Shown here: positions 11,349-44,275 of the stretch, in pieces
Layout of the letters: every line of letters begins with the position of its first letter
Numbering within the stretch: position 1 is the first letter of the stretch
Virus record (IMG/VR): IMGVR_UViG_3300042006_000042
Coordinates: 1-44,275 of that record
DNA length: 44,275 nt
DNA from: a virus
Direction: 5' to 3' (one strand)
Position numbers and translations under genes: made by a program
The notes under the pieces: generated by a model
Seen by the model: only the letters and a program-made list of their open reading frames with translations
The model's database searches: none
Told to the model about the DNA's origin: nothing

Positions 11349-12071
11349 TCAATTCGCGCGAGAGTACATCGCCCACCAAAAAACATGTCCAAGAATCGCT
11401 ATCTGCTGCTCTTGGATCTGCTCAAAGGTGTAGTTCTCGTCCGGGTGTTCGTCGTGGTTGAAGCTGCGCAGTTTGATGCCTGTGGGAGTCCGGTAAACCT
11501 GCTTCACGCGAAGCTGACCGTTGTGGTTCACCGCGTACATCTCGCCGTCGACGATATCGCCGAGCGAGTTTTTGCCCATGTTGACGCCCACTGTGGCGCC
11601 ATCCCGCAGCACCGGCATCATGCTATTGCCGCTCACCGTCACGCACTTGGCATTGCTGAATTGAACACCGTTGTTGCGTAGATCCTTCTTGAAGAAGCGA
11701 AGCCTTGCGCTGTCGCTTTCCTCTATCGCGAATCGCCCAGTGCCAGCCGCCAGCTCGACTTCCTTGAGAAAGGGGACGTAGACCTCGTCGTCACCGAGCG
11801 GCGTCTCGTCATCCCACGTTTCGATTGAGCTCAACGAAGTGTCGGCAGTGCGGCTCTGGCTTTCGAGCGGGCCGGCCTCGCCCATCAGGTAGGCGACCGA
11901 AACCCCAAGCACGTCGCTCAGCATTTTGATCTTCGGATTTCTCGGGACCGTTCGCCCGGATTCCCAGGCTTGGACGGATTGCGGGCTCACATCGAGCTTG
12001 CGCGCCAGCTCGGACTGATTCAGCCCAGCAGCCTCGCGGGCCGCAGCGATTCGGGAAGAGGTAGTAGTCAT
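11349..12071 (-). CDS. cI: CI-like repressor, HTH plus S24 self-cleaving domain
   Basis: 240 residues from ATG 12071 (an earlier ATG at 12119 would run through the operators). N-terminal XRE helix-turn-helix at about 5-60 (REAAGLNQSELARKLDVSPQ), then a LexA/S24 peptidase domain: cleavage-site Ala-Gly at 109-110 (ELAAGTGRF), catalytic Ser150 in SGNSM and Lys190 in LRVKQV. It represses early promoters in the lysogen and should self-cleave with RecA during SOS, inducing the prophage. Operators of matching dyad type lie just upstream. The ATG has no strong ribosome site and sits 12 bases from the first operator, so a leaderless transcript from a repressor-maintenance promoter is possible. Confidence 0.93.
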   Translation of the reverse strand: MTTTSSRIAAAREAAGLNQSELARKLDVSPQSVQAWESGRTVPRNPKIKMLSDVLGVSVAYLMGEAGPLESQSRTADTSLSSIETWDDETPLGDDEVYVPFLKEVELAAGTGRFAIEESDSARLRFFKKDLRNNGVQFSNAKCVTVSGNSMMPVLRDGATVGVNMGKNSLGDIVDGEMYAVNHNGQLRVKQVYRTPTGIKLRSFNHDEHPDENYTFEQIQEQQIAILGHVFWWAMYSRAN

Positions 12072-12082
12072 GGCCGCGAGAA

Positions 12083-12157
12083 TACAACTCGAACTTGTAG
12101 CTAGCATTGCAATTCTCACTTGTAGTCGCGATTCAAAAGCTGTAACTTTGCGTTGTA
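12083..12157. promoter_or_regulatory. Three-operator OR region between cI and cro
   Basis: Three 17-bp sites: TACAA-CTCGAAC-TTGTA (12083-12099), TGCAA-TTCTCAC-TTGTA (12108-12124) and TGTAA-CTTTGCG-TTGTA (12141-12157). They fit TNNAA-N7-TTGTA and match the leftward pair. A possible rightward promoter is TTGTAG (12120-12125), 17 bases, TAACTT (12143-12148), with a weak -10. CI and Cro should compete here. Confidence 0.78.
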
Positions 12158-41968: not shown

Positions 41969-42649
41969 TTACTCGATCGGTTTAATCAGATCCGGGCCCT
42001 GATTACGGACATTGCCTACAGCGCGATCGACCTTGAACCATTCGAAAGCCTCGGATGGCTCGCCTTCAAGCAGCACCATTTGTTCGGCGCGCTCTTTGGG
42101 CGTGGCCGGGTCGAGCCATTCGCGCGCGAGCTCTGGCGGGAGAACGACGGGGCGCCGATCATGAACATCGACCATGCCGCCGGCGCTGTCGGCGGTGATG
42201 ATTACAAAACCGTCGTGCTCGCCCGGGCTGTGATCCTCGTTCGGGTATTGGCCGATCGCGGCGCAGAGAATCGGGGATTGGTCCCGATGCCGGATCAGGT
42301 AGGGCTGCTTCTTCGGTCCACCTTCATCGACCCACTCGAACCAGTTGTTGATCGCGATGATTGCCCGGTGCGGCCAGATCGCGCGGAAGAACGGGCCGTG
42401 GGCGACTTTCTCTACGCGGGCGTTGATTGGCGCGGCGCGGTCTTTTGCCCAGTGCGGGCGCCATCCCCAGCGAACCATGTCTGCGTGCAGAAACTCGCCC
42501 TCCTGGTGGAAGAGGGCGAGCTGAGTGGTCGGCGCGGCGTTGTACCGTTCGAAGGGCTGCTCGCCGGTCGAGTTGATGAGCGCGTTCGGCATGCTGAGCG
42601 CCGCCACGAAGTCGTGAATGCCGCTGTACTGGGAAAGTCGTCCGCACAT
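41969..42649 (-). CDS. yedK: SRAP-family abasic-site DNA repair protein
   Basis: 226 residues from ATG 42649, so that the catalytic Cys is residue 2 (MCGRLSQYSG) after Met removal. Key sites: Asn77 in NARVE, Glu105 in WFEWVDEG, His163 in DVHDRRP, the active-site set known from E. coli YedK. SRAP/HMCES proteins form a thiazolidine DNA-protein crosslink at abasic sites in single-stranded DNA. Here it is the second gene of a leftward pair behind a LexA box, so it should be induced by DNA damage, when the prophage also induces. Gene symbol is by family. Confidence 0.92.
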   Translation of the reverse strand: MCGRLSQYSGIHDFVAALSMPNALINSTGEQPFERYNAAPTTQLALFHQEGEFLHADMVRWGWRPHWAKDRAAPINARVEKVAHGPFFRAIWPHRAIIAINNWFEWVDEGGPKKQPYLIRHRDQSPILCAAIGQYPNEDHSPGEHDGFVIITADSAGGMVDVHDRRPVVLPPELAREWLDPATPKERAEQMVLLEGEPSEAFEWFKVDRAVGNVRNQGPDLIKPIE

Positions 42650-42703
42650 TGCCATGCCCTCGGCTGGATCTGATTCAGCGTAGACCCGCCAGCGCTGGCT
42701 TCG

Positions 42704-43075
42704 TCACAAACCTTTTTCGGCGCAGCATTCGCAATGACCCGTCATCTCCTCCCGGTCTCGAGCTTCTCGGAGCAGGCGCTGGTTTTCATTGAACAGATAG
42801 CTTCTGTTGTGCTCGACGTCGGCGAATCTGCGCTTTTCGCTCAACAAAGCCCCTTCGGCGTACTGAAGCTTGGCCTTGAGAGAATCTCTCTCCTGCCTGA
42901 GTGCGTCATTGTCTCTGACCAGGCCTTCGATATTCGCCAGCGCTCGATCGAGCTTGAGAGTGAGCGCCTCGAATTCGTTCTCGTACATCCTGAGCTGGTG
43001 TCGGCAGGTTTCGAGTGGGGTCGGGGTTCCGAGCCAATCGTCGGTGTCTTCTATATAGATGGGGTCCACGGGCAT
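42704..43075 (-). CDS. SOS-linked coiled-coil protein
   Basis: 123 residues: acidic start MPVDPIYIEDTDDWLGTPTP, long coiled coil (residues 25-105: LRMYENEFEALTLKLDRALA, RQERDSLKAKLQYAEGALLS), and a Cys-containing end GHCECCAEKGL that may bind zinc. It precedes the SRAP gene in the same direction, and its start is 12 bases downstream of a LexA box, with AAGG as ribosome site. Function unknown; a DNA-damage related partner of SRAP is plausible from context. Confidence 0.72.
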   Translation of the reverse strand: MPVDPIYIEDTDDWLGTPTPLETCRHQLRMYENEFEALTLKLDRALANIEGLVRDNDALRQERDSLKAKLQYAEGALLSEKRRFADVEHNRSYLFNENQRLLREARDREEMTGHCECCAEKGL

Positions 43076-43087
43076 GCCTTGTTAATA

Positions 43088-43103
43088 CTGTTTGTATATA
43101 CAG
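43088..43103 (-). promoter_or_regulatory. LexA (SOS) box
   Basis: CTGT-TTGTATAT-ACAG on the plus strand (minus: CTGTATATACAAACAG), a perfect CTGT-N8-ACAG site. Its TATATA core can serve as -10 for the leftward pair; LexA bound here would block the promoter until DNA damage. Confidence 0.85.
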
Positions 43104-43300: not shown

Positions 43301-43437
43301 CATAGCAAAACCCAAAAATAATATTAGGAGTATGGCTGAAGAACTGTCGATGGTTGTTTGTAAGACCTGAAAATCTCGTGAAAAGGCCTGTAAAAAGAGC
43401 GGTTTCCGGCGAACGGTTGAAGTTTTTTCTCAGGCAC

Positions 43438-43462
43438 GAAAAACCCCGCACAAGGCGGGGTT
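43438..43462 (-). terminator. folD terminator
   Basis: AACCCCGC (43442-43449) pairs with GCGGGGTT (43455-43462) and the minus strand continues with T; 23 bases past the folD stop. Ends folD transcription before the prophage. Confidence 0.88.
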
Positions 43463-43484
43463 CTGGCGCAGCGGAAAATTCCGA

Positions 43485-44275
43485 TCAGACGTGCAGGGTT
43501 TCTGCGGCGTAGAGCGTGTTTTCCAGCAGGCAGGCGCGGGTCATCGGGCCAACGCCGCCCGGTACCGGGGTGATCCAGCCGGCGCGGGGCAGGGCGGTTT
43601 CGTAGACAACGTCACCGACCAGTTTGCCGTCGTCCTGACGGTTAATGCCGACGTCGATCACGATCGCGCCTTCCTTGATCCACTCGCCCTTGACCAGGCC
43701 CGGCTTGCCGGCGGCGACGACCACCAGATCAGCACGGCCGACGTGGCCCGCCAGATCCTTGGTGAAGCGGTGAGTGACGGTGACGGTGCAGCCGGCCAGC
43801 AACAATTCCATGGCCATCGGGCGGCCGACGATATTGGAGGCGCCCACGACTACCGCGTCCATCCCGTAAAGATCAGCGCCAGTGCTTTCCAGCAAGGTCA
43901 TGATGCCTTTCGGGGTGCAGGGGCGCAGCAGCGGGATGCGCTGGGCCAGGCGACCGACGTTGTACGGATGGAAACCGTCGACGTCTTTATCCGGGCGAAT
44001 GCGTTCCAGCAGCTTGGACGCGTCGAGGTGTTCGGGCAGAGGCAACTGCAGGAGAACACCGTCGATGGCCGGGTCGTCATTGAGGCGATCGATCAGATCG
44101 GTCAGGGCGTCCTGAGTGGTGTCGGAGGGCAGGTCGTAGGCTTGAGAGAGGAAGCCAACCTCTTCACAGTCTTTACGCTTGTGCGAGACATAAACCTGAG
44201 AGGCAGGATCGCTGCCGACCAGGATCACCGCGAGGCCGGGGGTGCGCAGGCCTTGCTGGCGACGCTCGGCAACTC
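43485..44275 (-). CDS. folD: FolD, 5' part outside window
   Basis: Bifunctional methylenetetrahydrofolate dehydrogenase/cyclohydrolase; converts 5,10-methylene-THF to 10-formyl-THF. About 263 codons visible; the first about 20 residues lie beyond the edge. Visible: [13 protein letters not shown] with the catalytic Lys, [43 protein letters not shown]-binding [12 protein letters not shown], and [19 protein letters not shown] near the end. Stop TGA at 43485-43487. This is host sequence and marks the insertion neighbourhood; in P. aeruginosa folD lies next to a tRNA cluster, a common phage target. Confidence 0.95.

Follow-up and report, generated by a model that had tools for sequence, protein, structure and literature searches.

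Close to one end of a Pseudomonas prophage, a LexA box, a gene for a coiled-coil protein (CC) and a SRAP gene lie in that order on the minus strand. They are best explained as an accessory operon, repressed by LexA, that occupies a slot near the attachment site of a temperate Pseudomonas phage and in which an exchangeable leading gene is followed by the gene for a SRAP cross-linker. The probability of this reading was put at about two in three. The analysed DNA, termed the window, was the whole 44,275-nt IMG/VR record IMGVR_UViG_3300042006_000042 (Table 1). A sequence-only reading of the window had proposed a perfect LexA box before a coiled-coil gene followed by SRAP, and all three were present on the minus strand.

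The window was identified as a temperate Pseudomonas prophage carrying an S24-peptidase repressor, ERF and YqaJ recombination genes and a lambda-J-like tail tip. Prophage-free Pseudomonas genomes aligned at 95-97% from position 43321, next to folD, with nothing aligned before that point, which places the LexA box (43088-43103) 217 bp from the prophage/host junction, on the prophage side. This agrees with the location at the prophage edge given earlier. The interval then assigned to the cassette (42704-43103) contained the box and CC; the SRAP gene was outside it. No match was found between the left end of the window and the sequence beyond the host junction, and the left end stopped short of any integrase. 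The prophage itself should, judging by the domains of its S24-peptidase repressor, be RecA-inducible.

Table 1. Coordinates of the operon, its surroundings and the phage repressor in the window
Feature	Position	Strand	Basis or remark
SRAP gene, 226 aa, YedK/HMCES family	41969..42649	(-)	Pfam PF02586, intact active-site residues
X-gene 3' remnant	42650..42724	(-)	last six CC codons (second half of the Cys tail) and gap up to SRAP
CC gene, 121 aa	42704..43069	(-)	GTG start conserved; N-terminal peptide, long helix, tail HCECCAEKGL
LexA box CTGTATATACAAACAG	43088..43103	(-)	sole perfect CTGT-N8-ACAG in window; kept before CC in 15/15 genome loci
Host chromosome with folD	43321..44275 (folD 43485-44273, minus strand)		prophage end ~43320; alignment of prophage-free Pseudomonas genomes
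Phage repressor, HTH + S24 peptidase	11352..12119	(-)	Pfam PF00717 + PF01381; context, outside operon

The SRAP open reading frame ran from 42655 to 41969 on the minus strand. The likeliest start was set at ATG 42649 (MCGRL...) and not at 42655 because only this start yields the catalytic Cys2, a GAGG is positioned 8 nt upstream and relatives start there. The product matched PF02586 over the full profile (positions 1-214 of 214, E=4.7e-47) and matched YedK structures with E about 1e-51. Residues C2, N76, E105 and H163 aligned with C2, N75, E105 and H160 of YedK, the active site for abasic-site cross-linking (PMC9436759). The Pfam match and the four retained residues upheld the earlier identification as SRAP, and the protein is, from these residues, probably an active YedK-type abasic-site cross-linker. 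It shares its family, the Cys2 start and all four active-site residues with YedK and HMCES; unlike these, it is phage-borne and is encoded by the second gene behind a LexA box, after an exchangeable leader.

The CC open reading frame extended from 43075 to 42704 (minus strand). The ATG at 43075 was not conserved, with ATT, GTG, CTC or others in relatives. GTG 43069, six bases downstream, was conserved and had a Shine-Dalgarno sequence (AAGG) at a suitable spacing, so CC likely starts there and encodes 121 aa. The distance from the box to this start is 18 nt and not the 12 nt originally counted. A dN/dS of about 0.13 indicated purifying selection. The structure model (pLDDT 88.7) consisted of one long helix (18-110), preceded by a strongly conserved, flexible N-terminal peptide, IEDTDDWLGxPTPLE. 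CC is probably a rod-like coiled-coil that would dimerise and present the N-terminal peptide to some partner. One CC copy (L008:6007-6340) was frameshifted early (54 aa, then stop) with the box still in place and represents a decaying copy. No Pfam, PHROG, NCBIfam or PADLOC family matched CC above cut-off, and membership of a known family was rejected, the coiled-coil matches being weak and below cut-offs. Family searches likewise revealed no homology of CC to any named antirepressor or to the DinI family. Inspection of neighbouring genes by eye placed CC at the prophage edge in the genome loci, convergent to lysis genes and at several insertion sites, in prophages with siphovirus-type tail genes in some cases and contractile-type in others.

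Prophage genes directly under host LexA include 186 tum and the Gifsy antirepressors. The cassette would have direct control by host LexA in common with them, and CC matches no named family. An antirepressor or induction helper of this type, whose damage-driven synthesis would free the lytic programme, is consistent with a small LexA-controlled prophage gene and with a predicted all-helical product bearing a conserved binding-type peptide. It was nevertheless judged unlikely, since the occurrence of the CC family in prophages of differing tail types and insertion sites makes a single repressor target improbable, the S24-peptidase repressor of the window prophage should be cut via the RecA route, and CC is without a named homologue.

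The box at 43088-43103 reads CTGTTTGTATATACAG on the plus strand and CTGTATATACAAACAG on the minus strand; no second perfect CTGT-N8-ACAG was found in the window. By eye, a weak -35 (TCGATT) and -10 (TATTAA) with a 17-nt spacer would flank it; no sigma-70 promoter was listed at the box by a consensus promoter scan. A search for a minus-strand terminator ending the operon returned none. CC and SRAP share a strand and are separated by a 54-nt gap, and for this reason they would be co-transcribed.

A CTG-N10-CAG operator, as in the LexA regulon, was found at the promoter and was conserved among relatives. It preceded CC in 15/15 Pseudomonas genome loci, 33-36 nt ahead of the CC start. A second set, collected with no reference to the box, comprised the best 80 SRAP relatives from viral contigs. 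The operon leader was CC at 39 of these loci, a different protein, X, at 36, and neither at 5, four of which start near a contig end; the fifth (L030) has CC ~2.2 kb upstream of SRAP. A strict box preceded the leader in 66 of the 69 loci with sufficient upstream sequence (CC-led, 38/39; X-led, 28/30), and the lone CC-led exception, L085, has CTGCATATCCAAACAG. The SRAP-set loci (592 kb) contained 70 strict boxes, compared with 3 and 2 when the same letters were rearranged into two control patterns; by these counts the box before CC/SRAP operons is not a product of chance. A CTG-N10-CAG box was also present at -37 to -41 in 33/33 X loci. The core CTGTATATNCAA(A/C)CAG was almost fixed in 129 CC promoters, with the bases just downstream variable; many loci of this sample were fetched with the box pattern itself, and the genome and SRAP sets are the fair tests.

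Isolated diverged phages retained CTGT-N8-ACAG with different inner bases: PseuP_222 has CTGTATGCACATACAG before CC-SRAP, SC_8_H2H8_2017 has CTGTACGCACATACAG ahead of CC and in F116 a LexA-type box, CTGTATATTCATACAG, precedes gp69. The lexA promoters of related Pseudomonas hosts carry CTGTATAAAAAGACAG and CTGTATATAATCCCAG, and the cassette box is therefore of the host's own type. Box conservation and enrichment over controls provide strong comparative evidence that the cassette is under host LexA control, in support of the SOS control first suggested for it.

The same 20-nt LexA-type sequence leads a DinI-like gene in the viral contigs L099, L103, L111, L124, L137, L168 and L176 (PF06183 in L103), and prophage SOS genes of several kinds are therefore served by this type of box. 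Further small genes, each immediately following a box of this type, were located at L112:9646-9882 (-), L121:7386-7628 (+), L125:3286-3531 (-) and L149:5198-5494 (+); they comprise two 79-82 aa relatives without a named family, a DUF1654 protein (L125) and one 99-aa protein with no match. Members of the phrog_12397 family (69 aa; L001:2545-2751, and near CC in L006, L011 and L015) were encoded a short distance upstream of the LexA box, on the same strand.

The X protein is ~241 aa long and has a C-terminal CxxC...CxxCxGxGF zinc-ribbon motif and an alpha/beta structure model of moderate confidence (pLDDT 77). It had no Pfam match, no NCBIfam match above cut-off and no Foldseek match at E<=0.001 in viral and PDB libraries. 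Homology of CC and X was ruled out (hhalign probability 0.2%). SRAP followed X in 27/33 X loci, some with broken frames (L220, L226, L228, L237). On the SRAP tree the leader switched between CC and X at least 8 times with box and SRAP staying in place, and the CC-led L029 and X-led L034 have near-identical SRAPs. As compared across these loci, the slot is a two-part arrangement with an exchangeable leader rather than a CC-SRAP partnership.

The window carries a trace of such an exchange. The remnant listed in Table 1 was identical at 69/76 nt to the X 3' end and intergenic gap of L047 (score 114, against a best of 24 in 200 shuffles), and the tail HCECCAEKGL therefore ends in the last knuckle of the X zinc ribbon. 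One base was lost in the remnant, changing GGT TTT GTG to GGT TTG TGA. Read from this identity, the window records a leader swap in which CC displaced X, with the Cys tail and the CC-SRAP gap left over. The tail was present in 19/40 distinct SRAP-linked CC proteins and in 0/62 CC proteins without SRAP. A shared functional role in the CC family was ruled out by the X remnant and this patchy presence, and the Cys tail, by which the sequence-only reading had described the gene, is not common to that family. Its CxxC was kept in 32/32 tailed copies and may have some residual function. At L062:1051-1141 and L040:976-1068, CC stops before any Cys tail and an X 3' remnant is still found in the pre-SRAP gap (43/48 nt in L062; judged by eye in L040).

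The sequence-only reading had also cast CC as the specific partner of SRAP. Dedicated partners in one abasic-site-processing complex, with the Cys tail as a contact or metal site, might be expected from the many different junctions by which CC and SRAP are joined (gaps of 2-142 nt) and from the retention of the tail CxxC in every tailed copy. Most CC genes have no adjoining SRAP, however: in the pattern sample it accompanied 15/74 CC genes and was absent for 54/74, and in the genome sample it was adjacent in 1/15 and lacking in 12/15. Moreover, the unrelated X leads SRAP at 36/80 loci, and the supposed contact site is an X remnant absent from 21/40 distinct SRAP-linked CC proteins. A dedicated partnership was accordingly considered decidedly improbable. 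The survey of SRAP neighbours in prophages that had been proposed thus found the layout to recur, together with its box, across many Pseudomonas prophages, and found CC to be one leader and not the exclusive one.

A passive cassette, in which genes without any selected function are carried along in a recombination-prone slot near the attachment site, is highly improbable. Recombination in the slot is frequent and broken copies of CC (L008) and SRAP (the four loci above) exist; against this stand the dN/dS of CC, the intact SRAP active site and the retention of the box core beside variable spacer bases.

For the preferred reading, a LexA-repressed operon with an exchangeable leader, the following course of events is envisaged. 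In the undamaged lysogen, host LexA would occupy the box and the operon would be silent. Upon damage, RecA filaments would promote LexA self-cleavage and the operon would be induced, with transcription towards the lysis genes and no need for cleavage of the phage repressor. Cys2 of SRAP would cross-link abasic sites in ssDNA, and would benefit damaged host or phage DNA by shielding these sites from breakage and error-prone copying during replication. The leading gene would act as an exchangeable module, CC here and X elsewhere, and CC would be no obligate SRAP subunit.

Parts of this arrangement have precedent. In its accessible text, Aravind et al. 2013 (PMC3765255) linked SRAP to bacterial SOS operons, reported that integrated phages of proteobacteria and also SPBc2 carry it, and suggested that it senses damage and acts as a switch for phage lysis; the SRAP neighbours given in that text include UmuCD, ImuAB-DnaE2, DinB, LexA and Ku, with CC and X not among them. 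In A. baumannii, a species without LexA, one study (PMC3978071) placed A1S_2014, a SRAP gene associated with a prophage, in a group with polymerase components induced by mitomycin C. In the accessible main text of a study of Pf-5 prophages (PMC2647930), folD, DUF159 and coiled coils all go unmentioned. The occurrence of SRAP in prophages and SOS operons has thus already been published. The accessible literature that was searched yielded no account of CC, of X or of the leader swap, and within that scope the earlier view of CC as undescribed stands. The same literature contained no paper combining a LexA box, Pseudomonas, a prophage and a coiled coil, and no LexA binding or damage-induction data for such a cassette.

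Phage PseuP_222 resembles the window in having a LexA-type box, CC and SRAP in this order, beside an integrase. Its CC (L257:2142-2480, WHS04348.1) comes immediately ahead of SRAP, and the label 'minor tail protein' given to it is apparently a misannotation inherited from a coiled-coil match. In phage F116 (L258:1543-3087) the box is followed by gp69, gp68 and the SRAP protein gp67; gp69 is remotely X-like (hhalign 90%), shorter than X and without the zinc ribbon. A LexA site is mentioned in neither annotation. Phage Presto has the same layout as F116.

More tentatively, the slot may be dedicated to LexA-driven damage tolerance, with interchangeable leaders (CC or X) acting alone or with the cross-linker in damaged lysogens, before or without induction, such that the prophage would lend its host a second SOS branch; this is possible, and at present doubtful. 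SRAP proteins are widespread, and the reason for which phages carry them can now be tested at this locus. The apparent placing of SRAP under host LexA and not the phage repressor, and the swapping of the leader while box and SRAP stay, predict a role in the damaged lysogen. CC and X constitute two undescribed families that probably belong to the Pseudomonas SOS response, and PseuP_222 and F116 are sequenced phages in which they can be tested.
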